Shown: one piece after another, positions 1-21,571 of the stretch
Layout: each line of letters begins with the position of its first letter
Numbering within the stretch: position 1 is the stretch's first letter
Source: Nitrososphaerota archaeon
Lineage (GTDB): Archaea; Thermoproteota; Nitrososphaeria; Nitrososphaerales; Nitrosopumilaceae
Direction of reading: 5' to 3'
DNA: 34,164 nt
Assembly: GCA_028867675.1 (NCBI GenBank)
Contig: JAGWGA010000019.1
Location: 1 to 34,164 of the forward strand
Notes under the pieces: model-generated
Database searches by the model: none
Told to the model about the DNA's origin: nothing
Seen by the model: the letters and a program-made list of their open reading frames with translations, nothing else
Translations under genes and position numbers: made by a program

Positions 1-40
1 TCAAGAGGGGCAGGGGTGAATTGAGACATAGCGAATCTGT

Positions 41-62
41 AATAGTATAATAATATACTATT
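41..62. promoter_or_regulatory. Perfect 9-bp inverted repeat over the toxin-antitoxin promoter
   Basis: Arms 41-49 (AATAGTATA) and 54-62 (TATACTATT) are perfect reverse complements around a 4-base spacer. The AT-rich core resembles a TATA box and lies about 30-50 bp before the antitoxin ATG at 93. Toxin-antitoxin modules commonly repress themselves through palindromic operators, so this is a candidate operator overlapping the TATA element. Confidence 0.5.
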
Positions 63-77
63 GTTAAAATATCTGAG

Positions 78-93
78 TGTTATAGGTATAACA
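78..93. promoter_or_regulatory. Second inverted repeat touching the antitoxin start codon
   Basis: Arms 78-84 (TGTTATA) and 87-93 (TATAACA) are perfect reverse complements around GG. The right arm ends on the A of the antitoxin ATG. It could be a second operator half or a leader hairpin covering translation initiation. Confidence 0.45.
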
Positions 94-239
94 TGCAACG
101 AGCCACAAAGAAAGCCAAAGTAGAAGACGACCTGACGCCAGAAGAGATAGCAGACGTAAAAGAATTCTACAAGGCAAAAGCAGAGGGCAAAACAAAGGTA
201 AGTACTTTAAAGGAATTACTCAAAGAATTAGATAGTTAG
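93..239 (+). CDS. Short antitoxin-like protein (48 aa) of a RelE-type module
   Basis: This ATG-started frame encodes 48 residues, MQRATKKAKVEDDL... ending in LKELLKELDS, and stops at 237-239, one base before the toxin frame opens. It is small, charged and helical, with an acidic N-terminal half and a lysine-rich middle, as expected of a minimal antitoxin that wraps around a RelE-fold toxin. No DNA-binding fold is obvious, but the two palindromes directly upstream suggest autoregulation, perhaps as the toxin-antitoxin complex. The assignment rests on position and size; I do not recognise the family from sequence alone. Confidence 0.65.
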   Translation: MQRATKKAKVEDDLTPEEIADVKEFYKAKAEGKTKVSTLKELLKELDS

Positions 240-240
240 T

Positions 241-507
241 TTGTGGCAATTTCAATATTACAAAGAATTTATCAAACAATACAAGAAACTAGGTTCTCAA
301 AGACAACAAAGAGTAAAGAAAGCACTAGCAGATTTAGAAGACTGCAATACCGATCCAAAAACAAAAGGAGTATTCAAGTCATCTATGAAAGTATATGCAT
401 ATGAATTAGGACAGAACGATAGGATAATTTATGATATAGATTATCAAAACCAAAGAATAATGTTGCTTCGTGTAGGCGACCATAAAATGACTTACGGCAA
501 GGATTAA
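241..507 (+). CDS. RelE/ParE-superfamily toxin
   Basis: The 88-aa protein has the RelE/ParE layout: an N-terminal YYKEFIKQYKKL helix, a second helix around residues 20-35, then beta strands with RIIYDIDY and a C-terminal RVGDHKMTYGKD strand. The VGDH...Y ending matches the usual archaeal RelE consensus. Family members are mostly ribosome-dependent mRNA endonucleases; the ParE branch poisons gyrase. The start is TTG at 241, one base after the antitoxin stop, which implies translational coupling. The 3' end overlaps the convergent surface-protein gene by 4 bases. Such modules are common on mobile elements as stability or defence devices. Confidence 0.8.
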   Translation: MWQFQYYKEFIKQYKKLGSQRQQRVKKALADLEDCNTDPKTKGVFKSSMKVYAYELGQNDRIIYDIDYQNQRIMLLRVGDHKMTYGKD

Positions 508-2291
508 CTAATTTTTGTAAGTATCATATTTGCAAAGTTTATTGCTTCGTCATCCAAGTTATACAGGTTACCAATACCGCTTATGAAAATAGTATAGTTA
601 TTTTTGTTACAAAATACACCATTTCTCTCTTCCAATCCAAAATCCTCTTTTATGCCATGACATTCATTTGGTAAACCTGTTAGTGTTGAGAACCCAACTT
701 TTGTTTGAGACTGTGCATTAGAGAAAAAACCATCTGTCCTTTGTTTTGCTTCATCGTTAGAGCCAAATCTATAGATCGAAACATCTATGACACCACTTCC
801 CATATCTTGACTTTTTACGTACTCCCTTTGATAAGCGTCTACTGTTTCATTACCATTATTATATGACATATCCTTCTCTTTGCTCATACTCCAAGTAAGA
901 CCATCATTGTATGTCGGAAATAATTGCACCAAGTCAGATTGACTTGGGTTTTGTGGTTGTGATATGGTGTTTGATTGTGATTGTCCAGATGCTTGATTAG
1001 GCAGTTTATTGAGAATTATTTGAGCCAATTTAGTCATGTCTTGTTTTACTTGGTCACCATTATCATAAGCAAAGGGATTTTCCAAGATGGCATATTCGTC
1101 TTTTTGACAGAAAAACATAGTAGATAATTGTCCATTGGTGCTCCCCATATGCATATCAGTTATCCAACAATAGCCTTTGATAGAATCATCAGGTGTTATG
1201 GCTATTGCACCCATCTGCATATTCATGGATACAGCATGATTGACCGTCTGTTGAGATTTATCGCTTGACTCGTATTTGGCAATTTCTACATGAATTTTTT
1301 TATTGTCATAATTGTTTGTATATGATTGATACCAATCTTCTAACCATTCGCCACCTTGTTCTGTTGACAAGGTTAAGTTTCCAATTATCCATCCATCGCC
1401 CAATTCTGTTTGTTGAGGAAATAGTGCCTGTGTAGAATTAACTGGTTGGATTATTGTTTTTGTTATTGGTTGAGTTGTTATTTGTGTAGTTTTGTGGATG
1501 AGAATAATTCCGTTTTGAGCCAAATATTCTACTCCTTTTAAGAAATCTGAATCTCCAATTGTTCCTTCTGACCACCACTTTGCATTATTTTTAATCCAAG
1601 AAGGAATCTGAGAATTAGACGAAGTTACATTAACAGGTGGTACTGTTATTATTTTATTTTGAGCCAAATATTCTACTCCTTTTAAGAAATCTGAATCTCC
1701 AATTGTTCCTTCTGACCACCACTTTGCATTATTTTTAATCCAAGAAGGAATGTTCGTTGTAGCAGAAAACGGTTGTTTAATTTTTGTGATATTAGTATAA
1801 GTTAGATTTGGTTTGGTGAAATTCAATGGAATTTTATGTTCTGTTAATGACATATGGACAGGAATTTGTTTTACCGTAAATGATATTTTACCAAAAATTG
1901 TACTTGCATAAGAAACAAACACAGTGTAGTCTCCCTTTTGTGAATTAGAATCTACATAATATGTCGTAGCATAATTCCCGTTGGAATCAGCTGAAATCTC
2001 CGAACCTTTCATACTACCATCTGGCAAGACAAAACCGATAGTTACCTTAGTATCAGCAGGATTGAAATTAGCAATAGTACCGTTAAGTTTTACAGTAGTA
2101 CCATTAATGTATGACACATCATACTCATTTCTATCTGCTTGAAGTATCCCTAGTTGAGAAGAACTTTTACTTTCTACAGAAGTATCACCAAATGCAGAAA
2201 AAGATATTATTTTATCCGTTGAGATAAATATGATGTTTATTATTACGAAAATAATTATGATAGATGATAACCTAATTTTCAATTGTCTCAA
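504..2291 (-). CDS. Secreted or surface-anchored protein with duplicated SWIKNNAKWW motif
   Basis: The 595-aa protein starts at a TTG; an in-frame stop lies a few codons upstream. Residues 10-24 form a hydrophobic signal or anchor segment. An Ig/MG2-like beta domain (about 55-142) follows, then two copies (181-213 and 229-261) of a motif beginning IPSWIKNNAKWW, which I know as recurrent in thaumarchaeal extracellular proteins. After a Thr/Gln-rich linker come two related domains of about 145 residues (about 289-432 and 452-595). Each opens with LFP and has a cysteine pair near its end. The function is unknown; cell-surface adhesion or exclusion by the element is a guess. No intramembrane C-terminal anchor is visible. 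Confidence 0.8.
   Translation of the reverse strand: MRQLKIRLSSIIIIFVIINIIFISTDKIISFSAFGDTSVESKSSSQLGILQADRNEYDVSYINGTTVKLNGTIANFNPADTKVTIGFVLPDGSMKGSEISADSNGNYATTYYVDSNSQKGDYTVFVSYASTIFGKISFTVKQIPVHMSLTEHKIPLNFTKPNLTYTNITKIKQPFSATTNIPSWIKNNAKWWSEGTIGDSDFLKGVEYLAQNKIITVPPVNVTSSNSQIPSWIKNNAKWWSEGTIGDSDFLKGVEYLAQNGIILIHKTTQITTQPITKTIIQPVNSTQALFPQQTELGDGWIIGNLTLSTEQGGEWLEDWYQSYTNNYDNKKIHVEIAKYESSDKSQQTVNHAVSMNMQMGAIAITPDDSIKGYCWITDMHMGSTNGQLSTMFFCQKDEYAILENPFAYDNGDQVKQDMTKLAQIILNKLPNQASGQSQSNTISQPQNPSQSDLVQLFPTYNDGLTWSMSKEKDMSYNNGNETVDAYQREYVKSQDMGSGVIDVSIYRFGSNDEAKQRTDGFFSNAQSQTKVGFSTLTGLPNECHGIKEDFGLEERNGVFCNKNNYTIFISGIGNLYNLDDEAINFANMILTKIS
1513..1607. repeat. 95-bp direct repeat, copy 1
   Basis: Base-for-base identical to 1657-1751 as read by eye, at a 144-bp spacing (48 codons, in frame). 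It encodes the C-terminal copy of the SWIKNNAKWW motif in the surface protein read on the minus strand. Confidence 0.95.
1657..1751. repeat. 95-bp direct repeat, copy 2
   Basis: Second identical copy, encoding the N-terminal SWIKNNAKWW motif. Identity at all synonymous positions points to recent duplication or ongoing gene conversion. Recombination between copies would delete exactly 48 codons without breaking the frame. Confidence 0.95.
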
Positions 2292-2418
2292 ACACTGTTA
2301 ATTTTGAATTAGATAAGTATATCAATTTAGATGTTAATGCACTGGATTTCTCAAAGAATTATAATTGTCGTACCTGACCCAATAATAAAATTTAAATCAA
2401 TATCTACTATGGTTTTGC

Positions 2419-2721
2419 ATGCAAGACACAAAATTCTTTTGTAGAACATGTGGTCATCCTAGCACAGACCATAAAAACAGCAAATGCAATCATGTATTAG
2501 CGATATTTGGAAGACAGTGTCCGTGCGAACACTACACAGAAATTTCTATTTCAGATAATAAAAGACTATACGAAGAATTCAAAGAGGCTTTACATGCATA
2601 CCGACAATTCAGTGAATCTTGTAAAGGTTCAGACGGAATTTATCGAGTTACAGATTTCAAACAAGCCGTATTAATACATGAAAGACAAGATTATCTCTGG
2701 CGTGAATTAAACAAGCATTAG
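2419..2721 (+). CDS. Small cysteine-rich zinc-binding protein (100 aa)
   Basis: The N-terminal 40 residues carry CRTCGHPSTDH, then a cysteine at CNHV, then CPCEHY: a CxxC / C / CxC-H pattern consistent with one or two zinc sites. The C-terminal 60 residues are predicted helical (LYEEFKEALHAYRQF, ERQDYLWREL). The ATG at 2419 sits about 20-30 bp after an AT-rich TATA-like stretch at 2389-2400. An overlapping ATG at 2409 is out of frame. I do not recognise the family; small Zn-finger proteins of this kind are common in archaeal viruses and plasmids. It may be cotranscribed with the zinc-ribbon gene at 2791. Confidence 0.65.
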   Translation: MQDTKFFCRTCGHPSTDHKNSKCNHVLAIFGRQCPCEHYTEISISDNKRLYEEFKEALHAYRQFSESCKGSDGIYRVTDFKQAVLIHERQDYLWRELNKH

Positions 2722-2752
2722 TTAACTTAAAGAACAAGATTGTGGAATATCG

Positions 2753-2778
2753 TACTATCGGCAGAATAGTAAGCCGAT
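2753..2778 (+). promoter_or_regulatory. Two mutually exclusive hairpins before a zinc-ribbon gene
   Basis: TACTAT (2753-2758) can pair with ATAGTA (2766-2771), or ATCGGC (2757-2762) can pair with GCCGAT (2773-2778). The two stems share bases 2757-2758, and each lies in the other's loop region, so both cannot form fully. A Shine-Dalgarno-like GAGGT (2780-2784 area) follows directly. This could be a translational switch or chance. Confidence 0.3.
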
Positions 2779-2790
2779 GAGGTAACCGAA

Positions 2791-2973
2791 ATGGAAATAG
2801 AACGAAGTCTAACATGGTGTAGTATCTGCGGAAGAATATCCGCAACGATACCAGTACAGAACAGATACAGGTGTCCCCACTGCAATGGGTGGAATAGGTT
2901 CTTTCTACATGTGAGAGCCTACCGACACATCTATCCGAAGAAGAAGGCGTTGTATAACGCACTTCGCAAGTAA
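2791..2973 (+). CDS. Zinc-ribbon protein (60 aa)
   Basis: The 60-aa protein has CSICG near residue 10 and CPHCNGW near residue 29: two CxxC knuckles about 19 residues apart, the classic zinc-ribbon spacing. A basic C-terminal tail (YPKKKALYNALRK) follows. The ATG is preceded by GAGGT at about 7 bases, a good ribosome binding site. Free-standing zinc ribbons of this size in mobile elements usually bind nucleic acid or partner proteins, but nothing here fixes the role. A longer frame on the opposite strand (2657-2962) is its shadow. Confidence 0.7.
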   Translation: MEIERSLTWCSICGRISATIPVQNRYRCPHCNGWNRFFLHVRAYRHIYPKKKALYNALRK

Positions 2974-2975
2974 GT

Positions 2976-3015
2976 TACTCTCCGTGTGTGGGTCGAATAA
3001 AGAGTACGCCCACAC
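2976..3015. terminator. Interleaved inverted repeats between convergent genes
   Basis: Between the stop of the zinc-ribbon gene (2973) and the convergent frame ending at 3023, TACTCT (2976-2981) pairs with AGAGTA (3001-3006), and GTGTGGG (2986-2992) pairs with CCCACAC (3009-3015). The order A-B-A'-B' is that of an H-type pseudoknot. Position suggests a bidirectional terminator or RNA stabiliser; no long T-run follows on either strand. Confidence 0.4.
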
Positions 3016-3022
3016 TCACCCT

Positions 3023-3288
3023 TTAACCAAAAAAATTCCTTACGTCCCAAATTGCCTTACGAATTATCTTTTTACAATCAAGGCAACGCCAGAACTCCCA
3101 TATTACATTACCAGACCTTCTTCGATAGTAGACAAGTCTCTTATGCTTGCAGGATCGTGGGTCTATTTTCTTTTCAAATTCTTTAATTTTTCTCGTTCAA
3201 TCACCTTTAGTTTTTCATTCACATCTTCATCATTATCATAAGTGCCATCAATCAATCCAAGTAAGAAATTTAGTATCTCGTCTATCAT
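3023..3288 (-). pseudogene. Frameshifted small zinc-finger gene (about 88 aa if repaired)
   Basis: From the ATG at 3288 the first frame encodes 41 residues, MIDEILNFLLGL... to ...KLKNLKRK, and stops at 3163-3165. The continuation, in the -1 frame down to 3023, has no ATG, GTG or TTG start. It encodes an obviously protein-like stretch with SCKHKR followed by WRCLDCKK, a CxH...CxxC zinc motif. Adding one A to the A5 run (T-run 3187-3191 on the plus strand) joins them through REKIKEFEKKIDPRSC. The ATG overlaps the stop of the upstream membrane gene (ATGA), so it is the last gene of that operon. It is either a true disruption, a sequencing error, or less likely programmed frameshifting. Confidence 0.65.
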
Positions 3289-3527
3289 TTTCTCGACCTG
3301 TTTTTCTTAAACGCAATCCATATCAGACCTTCTAGGAATGTTATAAGACTGACACTTTCCCACGTAGTAGAAAGTAGCAAATAATCAACAATTTCAGCGA
3401 TGCTAATTTCACCAATCAGATATAGCGTCATCGCCACTAGACCAAAGAAAAGAAAAAATGCACTTGCCAAAAGACCAACTTGTAGTAACACAAGTGCATA
3501 CTTGATTCGTCTGTTTTTCTGTCGCAT
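3285..3527 (-). CDS. Small two-helix membrane protein
   Basis: The 80-aa protein (MRQKNRRIKYALV start) has a basic N-terminus, a long hydrophobic segment (LLQVGLLASAFFLFFGLVAM and onward) and a second one near the C-terminus, ending in a basic tail KKNRSRK. I chose the ATG at 3527, one base after the upstream gene's stop. A longer 93-aa version from 3566 would overlap that gene by 38 bases. The 3' end overlaps the next start by ATGA. The family is unrecognised. It sits in a leftward operon between the 139-aa hydrophilic protein and the frameshifted zinc protein. Confidence 0.6.
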   Translation of the reverse strand: MRQKNRRIKYALVLLQVGLLASAFFLFFGLVAMTLYLIGEISIAEIVDYLLLSTTWESVSLITFLEGLIWIAFKKNRSRK

Positions 3528-3528
3528 T

Positions 3529-3948
3529 TCATAATGATTTCTGCTTCTCCCTGTGCATTTTTGCAAAGTCTATTATCTTCTCTGAGACCTTTGCAACCGA
3601 TGGTGTCCTGTTGTTGATGCGCAGTGCGTTGTCGTATATCTCGCTCATAAAGAGAGTGCCAACGTCATAATCCACCCTTGCGGTATACTGACGCTCATAC
3701 TTTTTGAGTGTGTCACCTACAAAGCCAGTCCAGACTTCCATAGAGATTATGTGGTTCTCTTCTCGGAGAAATACCGAGATGGTTTTTTCCTCGCCTTCTG
3801 CGATCTTCTCGCTCTGTATGGTTGATACCGTTGTCCTTTCCTTGTCCTGCCTCACAAACAAGTCGTAAGACCTTTTCTTGTCTTCTGTCTCATAACTTCT
3901 GTATAGTCTCCTATACCTTTCCTCAATCTGCGGTGTTTCATTTTCCAT
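3529..3948 (-). CDS. Unrecognised hydrophilic protein (139 aa)
   Basis: The 139 residues are highly charged. The N-terminal third is probably helical (EERYRRLYRSYETEDKKRSY), the middle alternates strand-like segments (TISVFLREENHIISMEVW), and the C-terminus is a helix rich in Lys and Glu. There is no signal peptide, cysteine cluster or known catalytic motif. It is the first gene of a leftward three-gene unit; a TATA-like TAAATAATAT lies on the minus strand at about 3966-3975. I do not recognise the family and assign no function. Confidence 0.6.
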   Translation of the reverse strand: MENETPQIEERYRRLYRSYETEDKKRSYDLFVRQDKERTTVSTIQSEKIAEGEEKTISVFLREENHIISMEVWTGFVGDTLKKYERQYTARVDYDVGTLFMSEIYDNALRINNRTPSVAKVSEKIIDFAKMHREKQKSL

Positions 3949-4019
3949 TTCATCACAATATTATTTAGTAATGCAAATAACTAAAAACCCAACTACAAAC
4001 ATCTTTTACACAGATAAAT

Positions 4020-4681
4020 TTATTCAGTGAAGTATTTTCTTTTTAGTCGTCCTTTTCTAAATGCCATAATCCACGGCGCAGTAAAAATCCACGCCAGTCC
4101 TAACATCACCCCCCAAGCCTTAACAGCATCTACTCTAATTAGACCCGACAGAATCACAATAAAAATAGCAGGTAAAATGATTATCCCAACATACTTGAGA
4201 AATACCAACAGCCATTTCCACAGCCTAAATTTCTTCCAGTCAATCCCATATTCTTTCGAACTTGCATGCTTGACACTTTCCCAACGCACCACAACTGCAC
4301 CAAGTCCAGAAAAATAAAATCCCAGAATTTCCAGTACTTTAACATACAGTGGAAATTTTGTGTGTCTCATTTCATGCCATGCTTTAGTCTGCTCCTCTGT
4401 CCATCCTTCCTTTACTTCACGATAACCAAGTTTGTAATGAAGCAATCCTGGGGTAAGGTATATCGCAACTGCCAAAAGTATCCATCCAGATACAACGTAA
4501 TTATTGTTCCCAAATGCCCAGAAACTATTCCTTTTATGCCAAAAAACAAATAGACCAGTTCTGGGATAACACCGATAATCAAAAACACAACCGCAATAAT
4601 CCAGAGCGGATTCCTGAAAAAATGCCAGATGTCGTTAATAATCAGTACATGGAAAAATTTGTTCCAATCTACGCTTACCAT
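4020..4681 (-). pseudogene. Membrane protein split by a frameshift (about 220 aa if repaired)
   Basis: From the ATG at 4681 one frame gives DWNKFFHVLIINDIWHFF and a first membrane helix (WIIAVVFLIIGVIPELVYLF), then runs into an unlikely tail ending at 4412. The remaining 151-residue frame (4475-4020) would have to start by TTG in the middle of a membrane helix. Adding one T to the T6 run (A-run 4541-4546 on the plus strand) joins them as ELVYLFFWHKRNSFWAFG and restores a full second helix, YVVSGWILLAVAIYLTPGLL. Two more helices follow at about 95 and 120 residues from the TTG. The 5' end overlaps the ATPase gene by 7 bases, so it is probably its membrane partner. Confidence 0.65.
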
Positions 4682-6537
4682 TTTTTTAGAACCTCTTTAA
4701 TTTCTGGAATCAAGCAGACTTTTGCCTTTCCAGAATTAACGCATGGTAGATACTCGTATCTTGTTTTTTGTTCTTCATTAGGAACTACAATTAGAACTGG
4801 TTTGTCATAATTTGATACTCGTAAATCAAATTCTCCAAGAGACTTTTTACTTCCTGTCTCGCACTCTACAATCTTGTAGTCTGGGTTACCAGATGCTTGA
4901 GCTTCCTTTCTACGTTCTAGTTCTCCCACTCTGTTCTCTCCCTTGCCTTTTATCTCCTCCTCGATCACAAAATCAGGCTCAGCTACTCCATGCCTTGCCT
5001 TGTTGATAATTCTCCATCCTGCCTTGATAATTTCCTTCTCTGTTTCTTCCATCATCAAATCATGCGATGATTCGCCATTAGACAGATAGTAGTATGTTAC
5101 ATCTTTGTTGCGAAGCCTTATCTGAATTTCTTTTACCATGCCTGCTCTTGCCAACTCTCTCAAAGGCTGACGAATGTTTACAGCCTCTTTGGAATTCAAT
5201 CCAATACGTTTAGCAATTTCATATCCATACAAACAATTTTTTTCAAGCACATTTACAATTTTCATCTTTAGATCATCACGCCCTATCTTGTCGGCTACAA
5301 CCTGCTCTTCACCCTTCCACACATTATTTCCATCACTGACAAAATCAGTATGCGAAACATTCTCTGTTTCATGATTTTGTTTCTCTTCTACCTTTAGCGT
5401 TCTTGCTTTCTCCTTTAGCCTCTCCAATTTTTCAATATTTAATATCCAATATGGTAAGAGATTATCTCCATGCTGATATCTCAAATCTGTATAACAAAAA
5501 TCCTCTAATTGTCTGACTCCATCTCTGACAAACGCACCATAACCACTCTCGATTGCTTTCAAATCCTTATCGTTTGTATTTCTAAAACAGTAATGAGAAC
5601 CAAAATGTCCACGATAATCTTCGTCAAGATGTGTATAGTTTTGGGTAATTATGATAAGATGGATGTAGTAAGCACCCTGTAGCAACATTGTACCTATGAC
5701 AGATCGCTGTTGTCTGCTTGCAAGAACGTGCCATGCCTCATCAATTATTATGTAGAGTTTGTCTTTATTTTGCTCCTCTTCCTCAATTCTGTTTATTTGC
5801 CTCAAAAATAATTCTGCAACAAATGTTTTGATTTCATCGTCTGGCAAATTTCCTAAATCCAGTACGATGTTTCCTTGTCTAAAATCAATACTGCCGTGCT
5901 TTGCACCCTCAATCTGTAGTTTCTTGACTTTAGATTTTACAATATTTGTAATGTTGGCATCCCACTGCCCGCTTCTTGAAACCCTGTCAAGTGCCTTGAA
6001 AAAATCCTCAAAGTTCTTGGGTTTTAGATCCATTACCTCATAGACTTTTGACAAAATCGTGTCTATCATAAGCCCACGACTTGATAAATCGCTAAAGTAG
6101 GCACAACGAAATGCCTCACAAAAACTTCGTCCGTCAGCGAACAGGTTTGGAAAATATTGAGATACGTCTATCCAGTGATAACCAATATCAAAGTCCCTGT
6201 TATCATTCTGGAATTTTTTAAAAGATAAAACAATTTTGTGGTATGGAAGTTTTAGACAAAAATATTCTCCAAGTGATGTTTTTCCGCCTCTGGCAACCCC
6301 GTTAATGAGTATGTTCTTATTTGGTTTCTCTTGTGTTGCTTCAATAATGTTATAGCCTTTTGGATTATGAGGCTCTGCTATTACCTGTAAAAAATTATGC
6401 AAGCCTCTGTTTTCGATACGTCTTACAACACCTGTAAGATAGTTATCAGACTCTTCTCTATCCTTCCAGAATTTCCAGCCCACCATACTACCACCGATTG
6501 CCACAGCAACAAGCCAGTAATGCAGGTAAACTAACAA
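4675..6537 (-). CDS. HerA/FtsK/VirB4-like ATPase with winged-helix and nuclease-like C-terminal domains
   Basis: Numbered from the TTG at 6537, this 620-aa protein has an N-terminal membrane helix (residues 3-20), Walker A GVARGGKTS (80-88), Walker B LYIIIDEAWH (261-270) and IIITQN (295-300), where the sensor glutamine of HerA/FtsK-type DNA pumps sits. Residues 421-485 look like a winged helix (YGYEIAKRIG...). The C-terminal 120 residues contain PDFVIEEE (521-528) and DYKIVECETG (553-562), resembling the D...ExE core of diverged PD-(D/E)XK folds. The true start may be the ATG at 6622, reached by removing one G from the G4 run at 6606-6609; that restores RDLIRHIPRDIHYAKWL and a second helix. 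DNA translocation at the membrane is the likely role. Confidence 0.75.
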   Translation of the reverse strand: MLVYLHYWLVAVAIGGSMVGWKFWKDREESDNYLTGVVRRIENRGLHNFLQVIAEPHNPKGYNIIEATQEKPNKNILINGVARGGKTSLGEYFCLKLPYHKIVLSFKKFQNDNRDFDIGYHWIDVSQYFPNLFADGRSFCEAFRCAYFSDLSSRGLMIDTILSKVYEVMDLKPKNFEDFFKALDRVSRSGQWDANITNIVKSKVKKLQIEGAKHGSIDFRQGNIVLDLGNLPDDEIKTFVAELFLRQINRIEEEEQNKDKLYIIIDEAWHVLASRQQRSVIGTMLLQGAYYIHLIIITQNYTHLDEDYRGHFGSHYCFRNTNDKDLKAIESGYGAFVRDGVRQLEDFCYTDLRYQHGDNLLPYWILNIEKLERLKEKARTLKVEEKQNHETENVSHTDFVSDGNNVWKGEEQVVADKIGRDDLKMKIVNVLEKNCLYGYEIAKRIGLNSKEAVNIRQPLRELARAGMVKEIQIRLRNKDVTYYYLSNGESSHDLMMEETEKEIIKAGWRIINKARHGVAEPDFVIEEEIKGKGENRVGELERRKEAQASGNPDYKIVECETGSKKSLGEFDLRVSNYDKPVLIVVPNEEQKTRYEYLPCVNSGKAKVCLIPEIKEVLKKW

Positions 6538-6705
6538 AACTAGTGCCGAAATGATAGCAAGCCATTTGGCGTAATGTATGTCTCTTGGTATGTGTCTGAT
6601 TAAATCCCCGTTTGTTTACCATATGTATAGAAAAATACTTAAAATGATAGGTCATAGGTCTGACTCCATTAAATAATTCAATTCATAAAAGTTTGATGCT
6701 AAAAT

Positions 6706-6744
6706 AAAAAAACTTGGGACGGCAAATAAAAAATTCATGCCGTC
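6706..6744 (-). terminator. Hairpin plus T-run terminator
   Basis: On the minus strand GACGGCA (6744-6738) and TGCCGTC (6724-6718) form a perfect 7-bp stem around a T-rich 13-base loop. After a short gap a run of seven Ts follows (6712-6706). It straddles the stop codon of the 41-aa zinc protein and would end the leftward transcript from 6990 before the ATPase operon. Confidence 0.6.
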
Positions 6745-6860
6745 ATCATCTTTCTCAAAAGGCTTATTGCACACTGATAGCGATCCATGTCGCTATGCCC
6801 TTCTCCGTTCTTACCTCGGATGACTTTTCCGCAATTCATGCAAGTATTAGGAATTTGCAT
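6735..6860 (-). CDS. Tiny zinc-finger protein (41 aa)
   Basis: From the ATG at 6860 the frame encodes MQIPNTCMNCGKVIRGK, continuing to HSDMDRYQC and a basic end. The CxxC...H...C pattern could hold one zinc ion. Its start overlaps the last 14 bases of the 47-aa gene upstream, so it is probably translated by coupling. A longer 68-aa reading from 6941 is possible but would lie almost wholly inside that upstream gene, and its extra residues look out of frame. The function is unknown. Confidence 0.55.
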   Translation of the reverse strand: MQIPNTCMNCGKVIRGKNGEGHSDMDRYQCAISLLRKMMTA

Positions 6861-6990
6861 GTCCAGCCTCTCCCTCTGTGGTTTTATTTTTCCACAGACT
6901 GACTCGGTATCTTTTGTCTTCCATCTCAAGCCATCCAACATACATAGGGCGTTCGCCTTTCTTTTTGTCGGAATGTGTTTCAGTACTCAT
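6847..6990 (-). CDS. Small hydrophilic protein (47 aa) sharing a divergent promoter
   Basis: The 47 residues run MSTETHSDKKKGERPM, YVGWLEMEDKRYRVSLWKNK and TTEGEAGHANS. The GWLE...LWKNK arrangement recalls small phage and plasmid proteins that form a short beta sheet, but I cannot name a family. The ATG at 6990 is about 28 bp from a palindromic TATA element, which fits leaderless translation; an in-frame ATG at 6999 is an alternative. It overlaps the 41-aa zinc gene and is divergent from the winged-helix regulator at 7044. Confidence 0.55.
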   Translation of the reverse strand: MSTETHSDKKKGERPMYVGWLEMEDKRYRVSLWKNKTTEGEAGHANS

Positions 6991-7043
6991 ACATATCATA
7001 CGGCATAAAACTTAATAATTATTTAGTTTCATTTTAGTTTCAT
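6991..7043. promoter_or_regulatory. Bidirectional promoter with palindromic TATA element
   Basis: AATAATTATT at 7014-7023 is its own reverse complement. Its centre lies about 25 bp before the regulator ATG (7044) on the plus strand and about 28 bp before the ATG at 6990 on the minus strand. Both distances suit archaeal TATA-to-start spacing for leaderless transcripts, so one TBP site may serve both directions. Confidence 0.5.
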
Positions 7044-7871
7044 ATGAGTTTTGACCTAAATTGTGAAGGTTGTAAAAAAATACTAGACTTTATCCGTCAA
7101 TATCCAGATGGGAAAGGATTCAATGAAATAGTGAATCATTTTGAACAGAAAAAAATCATGGTTAGGTCTACCGTTGACAGACATCTTAAGGAATTAGATG
7201 AATTTGGCTTTCTGCATATCGAGAAAAAAAATACCCAAAGAGGCAAACCCACAATATACAAAGCAAGAACAATTCCTCTAAAAAAAATAGTTTTACAGCC
7301 TACATATAATATTAAAAAAATAATTAGAGAATTTCATGTTTCAAATTCATCAGTATATCACAAATCAACTAGGGAATTAGAGAACATAAGTGAACAACCA
7401 CAGGAATATTATGTAATGTATATCGAAGGAGATACTAACAAAACTTGGGATGAACTTCACGCTAAGATATATGAAAATCGAGATGGTAAAAGATCAGAAA
7501 TCTTGCCAGAATTATTAAAAAACCAACCACAAATCAAAAGATTTCGAATTAAATTCTCAGAACCACTTTACCAAAACCAAAGTACAGAAATTCACTTTGA
7601 ATACAAGTGGGACGAACCAAAAAAATCAAGACCATTTGATACTGCATACTACAAACCTAATCAGCTTGTATTTAGGATACATTTTGAAGACAAAAAAGAA
7701 CACAAAGCCAAACTCTATGAAATAGACCCATTAACTAATGAATCTGACTTGTCAAACGTCCCTCCTGTATATGATAAACGAAATAACACAATAGAATGGA
7801 ATTGTGAAGAAGCAATCAAATCAAGACATTATAGAGTTGACTGGGACGAAGCAACTGAACGCAGTTCTTAA
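7044..7871 (+). CDS. Winged-helix regulator with large beta-rich C-terminal domain
   Basis: In this 275-aa protein, residues 1-75 form a winged helix (KKILDFIRQYPDGKGFNEIV, then STVDRHLKELDEFGFLHIEK and a wing with RGKPTIYKA). A short cysteine pair (LNCEGCK) sits at the N-terminus. Residues about 120-275 are strand-rich and end in HYRVDW, with a repeated pattern of charged strands (FRIKFSEPL, IHFEYKWDEP, LVFRIHFEDK). I recall similar terminal ...Y.I.W beta domains on bacterial regulators but cannot name the family. It probably controls the divergent small genes or the recombinase, whose gene it overlaps tail-to-tail by 4 bases. Confidence 0.7.
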   Translation: MSFDLNCEGCKKILDFIRQYPDGKGFNEIVNHFEQKKIMVRSTVDRHLKELDEFGFLHIEKKNTQRGKPTIYKARTIPLKKIVLQPTYNIKKIIREFHVSNSSVYHKSTRELENISEQPQEYYVMYIEGDTNKTWDELHAKIYENRDGKRSEILPELLKNQPQIKRFRIKFSEPLYQNQSTEIHFEYKWDEPKKSRPFDTAYYKPNQLVFRIHFEDKKEHKAKLYEIDPLTNESDLSNVPPVYDKRNNTIEWNCEEAIKSRHYRVDWDEATERSS

Positions 7872-9031
7872 CTCTCTTTCTTCTGAATTAACTCATACAA
7901 ATTTGCAATCTGTGCTTTCATATAGTCAACTTCCTTCTGTTTTTCTTCTAGTTCCGTAATTTTTTTATCTCTTTTTTCTATCTCATATTTCTCTGTGTAT
8001 ATTGCCAAATATGGAAACGCTTTCTTGAAGTCCTCATAAAGAATTTCATGCAATCTATCTTCTGTGAAACTATCGTATTTTTCATCAACATTAAGAGCAT
8101 GTCCCATGAGTCTTTTTTTATTCGTAGAGTCTAGTTTCGCTTCGCTCAGTCCCGTTTTAAAGAAACGTCTGAAACTATGACTCATTACAACTGAATAGCG
8201 TCTTTGTCCCTCAACAATCACGATATTTTTCTTTCTTCTATAAGTCTCTACTAGATTTCTAACTGCCTGTTTTATTGCTAACTTGCTTGCAGGTTTAGAA
8301 ATTATCCGATCATCTTTCAATTTAACATAACTAACAAAAAGTGGTCTTGTATCATCCAACTTACCCTCTTTACTTCTTCTCTCTTCCAAATAATCATCAA
8401 TCGCTTTTGCACCATCAGGGGCTACAAATGTAGTATATCGACTCTTAGATGAGGTTGCATATACAACTAACTTTTTACAATCATCTTTAAAATCTGAAAC
8501 GTCTTTTATCCTAATCTCACTTAATGCACCAAGCCTTACCCCCGAATTTGCCATAGTAAGTAAACAAGCTTTTAGTCTCTTGTCTGTCGTAAGTCCTACC
8601 AAATCCTTAATCTCATGCGCTTGCCATGTACCAGTGCCTTCAGGTGTCTTTTCCTCTGGAATACCCCGCCTAAACCGCTTTAGTGATATACCATCCCTGT
8701 CAAATGTTGTTAAAACATTCTGGACACTTGCAAGAAAACTCTTATGATAAGATACGGACTTGCCAGAAATATTACTTAGATATGCACCTATCCACTTCTT
8801 GACCTGCTCCGAAGTAGCGTGCCTAAAATCATCAACGGCTAGGTGGTTATATGCCATAAACTGATAAAAATGCCAGATGTAGTTTTTCTTAGTTTCAACT
8901 GACTTGGTAACAATCAGTTCTCCTAATTCTTTCTGAATGTTTAGAGGCACTACCCGTTTTGTCATGCCATCATATTCTTTTTGTTTAAGATATATTTTCC
9001 CACCTTTTGACAAAAGTTTAATATAAAACAC
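7868..9031 (-). CDS. Tyrosine recombinase (integrase)
   Basis: The 387-aa protein has an N-terminal SAM-like DNA-binding domain (about 35-125) and a catalytic domain with all expected residues: Arg166 in GVRLGAL, a candidate Lys196, His285 and Arg288 in SHSFRRF, His311 in MGH and nucleophile Tyr319 in EKYDSF. A charged coiled-coil tail ends the protein. The frame opens with GTG at 9031; ATG at 8965 (MTKRVVPLNIQ) is the more conventional start. The gene is intact, unlike SSV-type integrases that are split on integration. It lies at the edge next to the chromosome and very probably inserted the element. Confidence 0.88.
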   Translation of the reverse strand: MFYIKLLSKGGKIYLKQKEYDGMTKRVVPLNIQKELGELIVTKSVETKKNYIWHFYQFMAYNHLAVDDFRHATSEQVKKWIGAYLSNISGKSVSYHKSFLASVQNVLTTFDRDGISLKRFRRGIPEEKTPEGTGTWQAHEIKDLVGLTTDKRLKACLLTMANSGVRLGALSEIRIKDVSDFKDDCKKLVVYATSSKSRYTTFVAPDGAKAIDDYLEERRSKEGKLDDTRPLFVSYVKLKDDRIISKPASKLAIKQAVRNLVETYRRKKNIVIVEGQRRYSVVMSHSFRRFFKTGLSEAKLDSTNKKRLMGHALNVDEKYDSFTEDRLHEILYEDFKKAFPYLAIYTEKYEIEKRDKKITELEEKQKEVDYMKAQIANLYELIQKKES

Positions 9032-9110
9032 TTAGACCTTCGGATCCAGTTATGATACAAAAAATAACACAGATCTCATCATTGCGATCTGAAAATAAGG
9101 AGAGATCCTT
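9032..9110. other. Element-chromosome junction and carbon-fixation gene promoter
   Basis: These 79 bases lie between the recombinase and the acyl-CoA synthetase. They contain an A-rich TATA-like stretch (9058-9067), a CAGATC/GATCTG inverted repeat (about 9070-9091) and a GGAGAG ribosome binding site just before the TTG at 9111. The attachment core should be here or just inside the recombinase gene, but no second copy is in the window. Confidence 0.4.
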
Positions 9111-11234
9111 TTGAATCCAGTAGCCAAAATTTTTGAAGAAACATTTGCAACAGATCACAAAGTAATTACCGAAGATCTGTCCAAAGGAGTACTAAAAAAA
9201 TATGGTATCAAAGTTCCAGGCTATGCACTTGTAAAAAGTGCAAATGAAGCTGCAAAAGCTGCCAAAAAGCTAGGTTTTCCACTTGTAATGAAAGTAGTCT
9301 CACCACAGATTCTTCACAAAAGTGATGTCGGTGGAGTAAAGGTTGGACTACAAAATGAGAAAGATGTCAAAAAGGCATTTTTAGAAATGTATCCAAGACT
9401 CTCAAAGAAAAAGGGAGTAAATGTTAAAGGAATTTTACTTGAAAAAATGGTCCCACAGGGAGTTGAATTAATCATTGGACTCCAAAACGACCCACAGTTT
9501 GGACCAGTAATAATGGTTGGACTTGGAGGTGTCTTGACGGAAATATTCAAGGATGTTGCATTTAGAATGCTGCCAATTACAATTGATGATGCAAAATCAA
9601 TGCTTACAGAATTGAAGGGCTCTAAAATTTTGTCAGGATATAGAGGTACAAAACCAATTGATATCAACATGCTTGCAAAGGCAATTGTTCAAATTGGAAA
9701 GATTGGTGTAGACAATGCAAACTACTTTGACAGTATTGACTTCAATCCAATTGTAGTCTATCCAAAATCCTACTATGTAGTTGATGCAAAGATAATTCTT
9801 AGAAAAGAGATCAAAAAAGATGCAATTTCTACAGCAAAACCAAACATCGAATTTATGGAGACATTCTTTACGCCACAATCAGTTGCACTAGTTGGTGCAT
9901 CTGCAACTCCAGGTAAAGTAGGAAATTCCGTCCTTGACAGTATTGCAAAGCACGATTACAAGGGCAAGGTATACCCAATCAATCCAAAAGCCGAAGAGAT
10001 TTTGGGAATAAAGTGTTATCCATCAATTGAAGCAATTCCAGATAAAGTTGATCTAGTTGTAGTATGTGTTGACCTATCAGTTACACCACCAGTTCTAGAA
10101 GCTTGTGCCAAGAAAGGAATCCACAATGTGGTCATAGTATCTGGAGGCGGAAAAGAACTTGGAGGCGAAAGAGCAGACTTTGAATCACAAATCAAGAGCC
10201 TCTCAGAGCAGCACAAGATTCGAATCATCGGTCCAAACTGTATTGGAATGTTCAATGCAGCAAATAGACTAGACTGTGCATTCCAAGGCCAAGAGAGAAT
10301 GGTTCGTGCAAGACTTGGACCAGTCGCGTTACTATCACAAAGTGGTACAATGGGAATTAGTTTTCTTGAGACTGCAGATTCATTTGGATTATCAAAGATG
10401 GTATCATATGGAAACAGATCAGATGTAGATGAAGCAGACATGATCTGGTATTTAGCAAATGATCCTCAAACCAAAGTAATTGCATTATACGTAGAAGGAT
10501 TTGGTGATGGAAGAAAATTCATCGAGACTGCTAAACGGGTAATGAAAGAAAAACAAAAACCAGTTCTAATCTGGAAGAGTGGAAGAACTACACTTGGTGC
10601 AAAACAAGCGGCCTCACACACGGGTTCACTTGGAGGTTCAAACGCAATCATCCAAGGAGCATTCAAACAAGCAGGAATCGTATCAGTAGAAAGCTATCAA
10701 GAACTTGCAGCAGCTGCAAAAGCATTAGCATGGCAGCCAGCTGCAAAAGGTCCAAGAGTTGCTCTAGTTAGTAACGGTGCAGGTCCAATGATTGGTGCAA
10801 TAGACCAGTTTGAAAAATACGGATTAGAACTTGGCAAAGTAACAGAGGCAACACTCAAGGAAATGAAGGCACATTATCCTCCAACATATGTCATAGGAAA
10901 TGGAAACCCAGCAGATGTAACTGGAGGGGCAAATGCCGACGATTACAGATATTCAATACAAAAGTTCATGGATGATCCAAACATCGACATTGTAATGCCA
11001 TGGTTTGTCTTCCAAGATGATCCACTTGAAGAGACAATCATTGATTATCTCGGGGAGTTTTCAAAGCAAGGCAAGAAACCATTGCTTGTTGGTGGAAATG
11101 GTGGTCCTTACACAGCCAAAGTTTCTGGACTAATTGAAAAGCACAATGTTCCAGTATTTGACGACCTCCGAGACTGGGTAGCAGCTGCATCGGCATTGCA
11201 CCAGTGGGGAAAACAAAAACCAAGGGGAACATAA
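9111..11234 (+). CDS. ADP-forming acyl-CoA synthetase, 3-hydroxypropionyl-CoA synthetase-like
   Basis: The 707-aa fused enzyme has an ATP-grasp domain (about 15-235, with His69 in ILHKSD), a CoA-binding Rossmann domain ([14 protein letters not shown] at 261-274) and a ligase domain with the phosphorylated His503 in SHTGSLGG. It joins a carboxylic acid to CoA using ATP and releasing ADP, which is the energy-saving variant in the thaumarchaeal 3HP/4HB cycle. In Nitrosopumilus maritimus the copy adjacent to the crotonase (Nmar_1309) was assigned to 3-hydroxypropionate and Nmar_0206 to 4-hydroxybutyrate. The same gene pairing here favours 3-hydroxypropionate. TTG start with a GGAGAG site; 3 bases before the next gene. 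Confidence 0.88.
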
Positions 11235-11237
11235 GAG

Positions 11238-11999
11238 ATGTCTCTAGTTCTAGTCTCAAAATCTGATGGAATATGCACAGTCAAGGTAAACAGACCAGAC
11301 AAGCTAAATGCAATGAATACGGATGTTGCAAAAGAGATCATCCAAGTATTCAAAGAAATTGAGACTGATGATTCTGTAAAAGTTGTAATTTTAACAGGAG
11401 AAGGAGACAAGGCATTTTCTGCAGGTGCAGACATTGCATACATGTCAACTATAACACCAATTGAATCAGAAACCTATGCAAAGCTTGGTCATCTTGTAAC
11501 TTCAACAGTAGAAAACTGTAGCAAGCCAACAATTGCAGCAATCAACGGATTTGCGTTGGGTGGAGGATGTGAGCTTGCACTTGCATGTGATATCAGAGTA
11601 GCTTCAGATACTGCAAGAATAGGACAACCTGAAGTAACAATTGGAGTATGTCCAGGATGGGGTGGAACTCAGAGATTGCAGAGAATAATTGGAATATCTC
11701 AGGCAAAAGATTTGATCTTTACTGGAAGAATGGTAAAAGCAGACGAAGCAAAAGAAATGGGACTAGTAAACAAAGTAGTCGAACTTGCAAAATTAATGGA
11801 AGAGACTAATAACATGGCAAAGATGATTGCCCAAAATTCTGCAATGGCAGTAAGAATGTCAAAGATTGCAATCAACAAGGGAAGAAACTCGGACATTGAT
11901 ACCGGACTTGCTCTAGAACTATACACTTGGGGATTGTGCTTTACACATTCAGACAGATCTGAGCGAATGACTGCATTCGTAAACAAGTCAAAAAAATAA
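11238..11999 (+). CDS. Crotonase-family 3-hydroxypropionyl-CoA dehydratase / crotonyl-CoA hydratase
   Basis: The 253-aa protein is a full-length enoyl-CoA hydratase. [10 protein letters not shown] and GFALGGG give the oxyanion hole, and the two catalytic glutamates are Glu112 ([10 protein letters not shown]) and Glu132 (GQPEVTIG). In N. maritimus the homologue next to the synthetase (Nmar_1308) was reported to act on both 3-hydroxypropionyl-CoA and crotonyl-CoA, serving both halves of the CO2-fixation cycle. The ATG is 3 bases after the synthetase stop, so the two are one operon. The neighbour, not the sequence, distinguishes this from a general fatty-acid hydratase. Confidence 0.88.
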
Positions 12000-21528: not shown

Positions 21529-21571
21529 GCAAGCTACATTTAATTGCATCAAGAATTTAGGCGTTAATTAT

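Follow-up and report, generated by a model that had tools for sequence, protein, structure and literature searches.

The DNA analysed here (the window) is a stretch of 34,164 nucleotides that makes up the entire contig JAGWGA010000019.1 of a Nitrososphaerota archaeon (assembly GCA_028867675.1; contig C110 of source genome G000, which has 224 contigs and is 97.5% complete). We consider it highly probable that window positions 1–9008 are an integrative element inserted at the promoter of hps, the gene of 3-hydroxypropionate–CoA ligase (ADP-forming), that the same attachment (att) core is a recurrent cassette site in related genomes, and that the tyrosine recombinase of the element is the best candidate enzyme. 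The right part of the window, with hps and a crotonase gene, is chromosome. The source genome groups with Candidatus Nitrosotalea: among the best 80 of 221 hps relatives, the nine closest share 93–96% protein identity, with N. bavarica first.

Probable integration boundary and crossover at the hps promoter

The promoter block of hps is common to relatives, and the sequences diverge immediately to the left of the 17 bp core TTTGACAAAAGTTTAAT, which is conserved in relatives without the element; the common block together with the divergence directly to its left argues for an integration boundary beyond chance. All 37 genomes of the genus have some match to window 9003–9400, and in 28 of the 36 others the match at the hps locus starts within the first eight query bases. 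The remaining eight comprise contig edges (G029, G032 and G036, the last of these with 27 nt of promoter), coding-only matches that are perhaps paralogous (G011, G015, G016 and G025), and G014, the core of which has one mismatch. The original prediction had placed the att site in the promoter or leader of hps rather than in a tRNA gene, and this placement holds. The core overlaps the hps TATA box, and no tRNA gene lies near the boundary, the window's two being at 21571 and 28708; an RNA-family scan of the window returned these two and nothing else. TATA boxes, here and below, are presumed from position and consensus, following general knowledge of archaeal promoters. In two of the 25 loci in which the position of the hps TATA box was compared, the exact core expression found no match in the stretch tested.

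The usual left neighbour of hps is a gene for a 229-residue class I glutamine amidotransferase (GATase; PF00117). Among 54 more distant loci (L028–L081), 48 have enough upstream sequence; GATase ends 39–124 nt before hps in 41 of these, lies 617 nt from it in one and was not found in six. Within the genus, 31 of the 37 genomes and three further loci were mapped, and in 24 of the 31 a single stretch carries both genes. Six of the 24 are empty sites, with the TGA stop codon of GATase inside the core. The spacing in the other 18 is 51–122 bp in eight (counting G024, with a degenerate first core copy) and 448 bp to 11.4 kb in ten (counting G035, measured from GATase end to hps start). In this comparison with element-free relatives, which had been proposed as a check of the insertion, the same recombinase stood beside hps in none: its nearest relatives in 250 family genomes are about 30% identical, and within the genus no match other than the window's own has an hps promoter less than 100 kb away on its contig.

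The interval CAAAAGTTTAAT (9011–9022) is directly preceded by a variable base (in G[A/C/T]C) that travels with the right end of the cassette, which places the crossover within this interval; the interval runs into the hps TATA box. After insertion, the core on the GATase side reads TTTAATG, without a TATA box, and the core on the hps side reads TTTAATATA. The promoter thus stays with hps, and only the DNA upstream of the TATA box changes. The earlier suggestion that the element may supply part of the promoter agrees with this position of the crossover. Since the TATA box is kept at the hps-side junctions observed, little effect on hps expression is expected, and insertion would be neutral in this respect.

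We propose that the element entered by site-specific recombination at TTTGACAAAAGTTTAAT inside the hps promoter. Crossover in CAAAAGTTTAAT would deprive the left core copy of the TATA box and regenerate TTTAAT plus the host ATA on the hps side, with the element contributing the initial bases of the box and the DNA upstream of it. Excision would proceed through a circle intermediate with the junction cassette right end–CAAAAGTTTAAT–GCCGTATTAAACTC. The same core would be a recurrent entry site in Nitrosotalea-type archaea, with cassettes stacking between the GATase gene and hps, and the window recombinase, supplied in trans, would be the best candidate for moving them, because the window element has a right end of the cassette type.

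This right end was scored with a position matrix of cassette right ends (15 ends, window excluded). The 20 nt before the core reach 16.8 bits, and on the two strands together one of 68,288 window positions scores that high. Leave-one-out scoring gives 4.7–23.0 for the 15 ends, and flanks outside the set score −22 to 5.2. Together with the homology break at the core and the backbone of a sister element in G031, it upholds the earlier claim that an element is inserted at this site.

The sister element (G031:C35) has the same order, with nucleotide identities of 75% to window 89–314, 92% to 2968–3971 and 80% to 5306–6606; the rest of the window element differs from it. It has a different integrase (24% identity over the match) and adjoins trpS (tryptophan–tRNA ligase; NF008927, 513.9 versus a cut-off of 478 bits), and its 14 bp direct repeat AAAGACTTTTTAAA spans a TATA-like box that precedes the trpS ATG by 22 nt (3 of 200 shuffles as good). 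In a more distant relative, in G032, the direct repeat is 16 bp long and extends into a TATA-like box some 25 nt ahead of a SUI1-family gene (PF01253; NCBIfam name YciH-like; 0 of 200 shuffles). Promoter targeting as a rule for all related elements is ruled out, as the 17 bp direct repeat of a relative in G028 is the end of a tRNA-His gene (ARAGORN). The relative in G034 adjoins arginine decarboxylase. For a second element in the source genome (G000:C111:63000–82000, L298; ATPase 49% identical to that of the window) no att was found; its integrase faces a 395-residue gene that looks truncated at the N-terminus and S-layer-like by eye, with no Pfam family. Two related elements (L297 786, minus strand; L299 166, plus strand) have CCAACGCTTCAACC[T/G]TTAATTTTCTGT in common directly inside their left repeats, a possible marker of element ends.

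Candidates for a left att inside the window were rejected. One at 6684 (−1.0 bits in scans with a loose core and a left-end position matrix) is weak. Another, at 6725, lies within a GACGGC/GCCGTC hairpin (6714–6742) between the ATPase and 275-residue genes, and its score of 9.3 bits is attained by four of 300 shuffles; this hairpin is the source of the best left-end score, which is probably false. An element boundary at 2.4 or 6.7 kb is countered by the backbone synteny down to window position 89. In G031 the left repeat lies about 0.58 kb from the RelBE genes, which predicts the left att of the window element about 0.5 kb beyond base 1. The GATase gene of G000 sits on contig C66, with no core after it. 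C66 carries homologues of genes from the island that separates GATase and hps in G001; C66 and C110, not joined by sequence, probably flank one island. A search of G000 for the upstream region of G008 gave only a 50-base match.

Cassettes at the same core

At least two copies of the core occur in G003, G009, G010 (beside a scaffold N), G020 (three), G021, G029, G031 and G033, and copies that share a contig have the same orientation; a third match in G009 (contig C3) is unlinked. Direct repeats of the core bound inserts in G003, G009, G020 (three copies), G031 and G033, and the maps of these five genomes and of G021 contain gene-cassette arrays at one insertion point. At L285 7498–8080 (G010:C35) the hps-promoter core occurs twice, with a single N after the first copy, and the GATase gene is split around the insert; this arrangement is probably a scaffolding error at a repeat.

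To the right of most core copies stands either the hps promoter (ATATAAAACAC or ATATAATGAC) or a left-end motif GCCGTATTAAACTCTCTTAAAC, and a few copies fit neither; to the left stand the end of GATase, a right-end motif (approximately GTATTTTCYYACATTTTG) or other sequence. The left-end pattern was found at 13 sites in nine of the 37 genus genomes (reversed-pattern control, 0), of which 11 share a contig with GATase or hps and two (G029:C66 and G033:C91) are unlinked. A pattern one base longer gave 12 sites in eight of the 250 family genomes, all of this genus (control, 0), and the exact pattern is absent from the viral contigs. The junction arms of the cassettes, AAAAGTTTAAT-N5-ATTAAACTCTC, are inverted at 9/11 in the consensus, as reached by 233 of 200,000 shuffles, and at 7–9/11 in the 11 listed junctions; the hps site has one arm only (1/11).

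Each cassette holds one to a few genes and no recognised integrase. Families were assigned to seven of the ten cassette proteins scanned, and the cargo includes HicA toxin, Fic, DUF1801, methyltransferase with rhodanese, HxlR, hydrolase-like and secreted-looking proteins as well as proteins of no family. Clusters of secreted-looking proteins with MKTLHL-like starts also stand beside core copies at L186 (G033:C91), L193 and L194 (both G029), on contigs in which the stretches examined contain neither hps nor GATase.

Between G033 and G020, the cassettes nearest to hps show 3 differences in 520 positions (99.4% identity), compared with 88.7% identity for hps and 83.8% for GATase (Fisher test, 6e-20), and divergence begins again 21 nt beyond the core. 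G009 and G031 carry DUF1801 cassettes with 96.6% identity, compared with 87.5% for hps (p = 1e-10); sites in these Fisher tests are not independent. For a cassette of G020 and G010 the values are 92.5–93.7% and 90.4%. That two cassette pairs are far more alike than the neighbouring hps indicates that those cassettes move between species. In G021 the same hps promoter occurs on two contigs, joined on each to a different stretch, as would be expected of a mixed population.

The recombinase and competing explanations

The recombinase had been described as starting 79 bp, or 145 bp from its ATG, before a 3-hydroxypropionyl-CoA synthetase-like gene. Both distances are correct, and the gene exceeds the cut-off of NF045492. 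The open reading frame (ORF) 7868–9031 on the minus strand opens at GTG 9031, 79 bp before the TTG start codon of hps at 9111, and the alternative start ATG 8965 lies 145 bp before the same TTG. ATG 8965 is the likelier start, since a TATA-like AAATATATC lies 23 nt upstream of it and roughly the first eight of the 22 extra codons on the GTG side are host promoter DNA read backwards. The protein scores 36.1 bits against PF00589 (cut-off 27.1). Residues R144, K164, H263, R266, H289 and Y297, which we take to be catalytic, are the commonest residues in 36–41 of 41 aligned rows, among which the window protein is present twice and some others are duplicated. The best NCBIfam match is the archaeal XerA model, the title of which also names integron integrases (52.6 bits versus a cut-off of 220); at E 0.01 the scan returned only this and a generic tyrosine recombinase model, both far below cut-off. 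A viral origin was considered and rejected, as viral contigs gave one match to the integrase, 26% identical.

Several observations weigh against our reading. No copy of a left att for the window element exists in the source assembly, and the best partner of the right end within the window is 12 bp, a length reached by 28 of 200 shuffles. The bare core, with up to one mismatch, has 39 matches in 26 of the 37 genomes compared with 14 for a reversed control, so an isolated core carries little meaning. The window's gene is the only one adjacent to an att site among 23 PF00589 matches in 11 genomes (that of the window and ten relatives), and no close homologue of it (nearest, about 30%) is present in the cassette-bearing relatives. 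G003, a cassette-bearing genome in one contig, has a single PF00589 match of 21 bits, below cut-off, and a search of G010 (78% complete) gave none. In the comparison of G033 with G003, the Fic cassettes (87.4% identity) have diverged further than hps (95.1%). Many of the compared sequences are metagenome bins; the 15 right ends of the matrix and the inverted-repeat arms were picked by eye, and the left-end pattern was derived from sites already seen, with only G012 and G035 new.

The missing left att and the lack of a close integrase homologue common to the cassette carriers would fit a core used by another, unseen recombinase, with the window element having landed there by its own or a decayed specificity. 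We regard this as unlikely, if credible, because a cognate integrase gene usually sits beside its att core and this one begins 40 bp from it, with its conserved residues intact, and because the element carries a cassette-type right end. The target might instead be the 3′ end of the GATase gene, the hps promoter being struck only because it abuts that end. At empty sites the GATase TGA does lie inside TTTGACAAAAG, and 14 of 68 thaumarchaeal elements are reported in 3′-distal parts of protein-coding genes in the main text of Krupovic et al. (2019, PMC6563490). Such a target is nevertheless improbable: going by the variable base in G[A/C/T]C, the crossover falls beyond the stop codon, in CAAAAGTTTAAT; the core still receives cassettes once GATase has been displaced; and the repeats of the related elements at trpS and the SUI1-family gene lie over TATA-like boxes at gene 5′ ends.

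Movement of the cassettes by the host XerA at dif-like sites seems decidedly improbable. It would account for two inverted 11-nt arms around a 5-nt spacer and for cassettes without an integrase of their own, as in the Acinetobacter dif modules, but the PF00589 results for G003 and G010 offer no good enzyme and the hps site itself has one arm only. Small cassettes, direct repeats, toxin-like cargo and one common insertion point are also what a bacterial-type or archaeal integron, with IntI and attC cassettes, would present, and toxin–antitoxin cargo occurs in integrons. We think an integron very improbable here, however, as no integron-integrase model was matched (the archaeal XerA model falling far short of its cut-off), six junction regions folded as DNA (five of relatives, one of these cassette-to-cassette, and that of the window) gave no unusual single-strand hairpin (z −0.96 to 1.92), and the crossover context GTTTAAT does not fit the integron crossover motif GTTRRRY. 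An assembly chimera that joins an element contig to hps, conceivable with 224 contigs, is the least credible explanation of all, given a junction exactly at the core used in relatives, with a cassette-end motif, and sister elements in the same genus.

Our preferred reading is thus of an hps promoter that would act as a docking site common to the element and to integron-like, non-integron cassettes. A wider proposal, in which non-integron cassettes are captured at the hps TATA box, elements with exchangeable integrases are directed to the TATA boxes of hps, trpS and the SUI1-family gene, all housekeeping genes, and the window recombinase acts in trans, is plausible, if slightly less likely than not, and put forward tentatively.

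Features of the region, related systems and meaning for the host

The features of the element and of the adjoining chromosome are given in Table 1.

Table 1. Annotated features of the integrated element and the hps region (window positions).
Feature	Position	Strand	Evidence or remark
Integrated element	1–9008	.	Right end 9008; left end beyond contig start
RelE/ParE-like toxin	241–507	+	phrog_1213, E 3.9e-11; weak ParE/RelE matches below cut-off
595-aa secreted-looking protein	504–2291	−	Local similarity to G001 and G036 island proteins
93-aa gene	3285–3566		Next after 139-aa gene
139-aa element-backbone gene	3529–3948	−	G031 element, 91.7% nucleotide identity over 2968–3971
VirB4/TraC/CedB-like ATPase	4675–6537	−	CedB E 5.4e-9, TraC E 1.5e-4, both under curated cut-offs
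275-aa protein adjoining integrase	7044–7871	+	Weak replication-initiator match, phrog_428, E 3.9e-5
Tyrosine recombinase (integrase), likely start ATG 8965	7868–8965	−	PF00589 over cut-off; conserved R-K-HxxR-H-Y
Element right-end motif GATATATTTTCCCACCTTTT	8989–9008	+	Common to cassette right ends; includes integrase's own TATA-like box
att core TTTGACAAAAGTTTAAT, 17 bp, right copy	9006–9022	+	Direct repeats bounding cassettes in relatives
TATA box TTTAATATA of hps	9017–9025	+	Position: 25–28 nt before ATG in 23 of 25 loci
Leaderless upstream ORF, 20 aa	9052–9114	+	Stop overlaps hps start codon region by 4 nt
hps, 3-hydroxypropionate–CoA ligase (ADP-forming)	9111–11234	+	NF045492 equivalog, 1353.9 bits versus cut-off 1300
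Enoyl-CoA hydratase/crotonase, next operon gene	11238–11999	+	PF00378, NCBIfam

The single VirB4/CedB-like ATPase, with scores below curated cut-offs, is the only putative part of a conjugation machinery, and no further transfer gene was recognised among the window proteins. It is 70% identical to its counterpart in G031:C35 and 49% to that in G000:C111, and has no match in the viral contigs. A short ORF upstream of the RelE/ParE-like toxin gene appears antitoxin-like. The 595-residue gene, the place of which is taken by a GmrSD-like gene in the G031 element, contains a 104-nt repeat (copies at 1504–1607 and 1648–1751, 96% alike, 144 nt start to start). The 275-residue protein appears to have a winged helix and gives an odd Ribophorin_I match just above cut-off. 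The 4-nt overlap between the upstream ORF and hps is kept in 17 of 17 leader-bearing loci, with upstream ORFs of 19–23 residues (25 loci tested, two without a core match), which suggests translational coupling; in six other loci hps itself begins at the ATG of the upstream ORF.

Thaumarchaeal cryptic integrated elements and integrative and conjugative elements have att sites down to 8 bp (median 17 bp), 15 of 68 are intergenic, and re-use of one site by arrays of tyrosine-recombinase elements has been noted (Krupovic et al. 2019, PMC6563490); in the main text of that paper, supplements apart, 'promoter' and 'CoA' have 0 occurrences. Compared with its descriptions, the present case likewise concerns integrated elements of ammonia-oxidizing archaea with a short att, and differs in having its att across the TATA box of a gene of core metabolism and in small cassettes with conserved ends. 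Archaeal integrons are small-cassette arrays at one insertion point, many without an integrase gene (Ghaly et al. 2022, PMC9668308), whereas here there is no IntI and no attC hairpin, the junction arms are inverted and 11 nt long, and the insertion point is a host promoter. The Acinetobacter dif modules resemble the cassettes in having discrete genes between short recombination sites and a recombinase in trans; unlike them, the cassettes have a chromosomal promoter as target, and two cassette genomes have no good XerA candidate. Integrases at the 5′ end of dusA (PMC4482086) similarly use the 5′ end of a conserved housekeeping gene, but the site described here overlaps the TATA box of an archaeal promoter. 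No description of cassettes or of integration at the hps promoter was found in titles and the beginnings of abstracts, a scope outside which subscription papers, preprints and supplements fall; in a comparative genomics paper on Nitrosotalea (PMC5767755) 'integrase', 'cassette' and other terms have 0 occurrences.

If the promoter is the att site, the capture of mobile genes would be tied to a gene that is all but indispensable to an autotroph. The site would be preserved by selection on hps, and every insertion would regenerate the promoter. Some of the thaumarchaeal insertions classed as 'intergenic' may then be TATA-box insertions, and the hps promoter would offer a natural engineering site for these archaea. 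Such a site would also help to explain how these ammonia oxidizers gain small secreted proteins and toxin–antitoxin genes.

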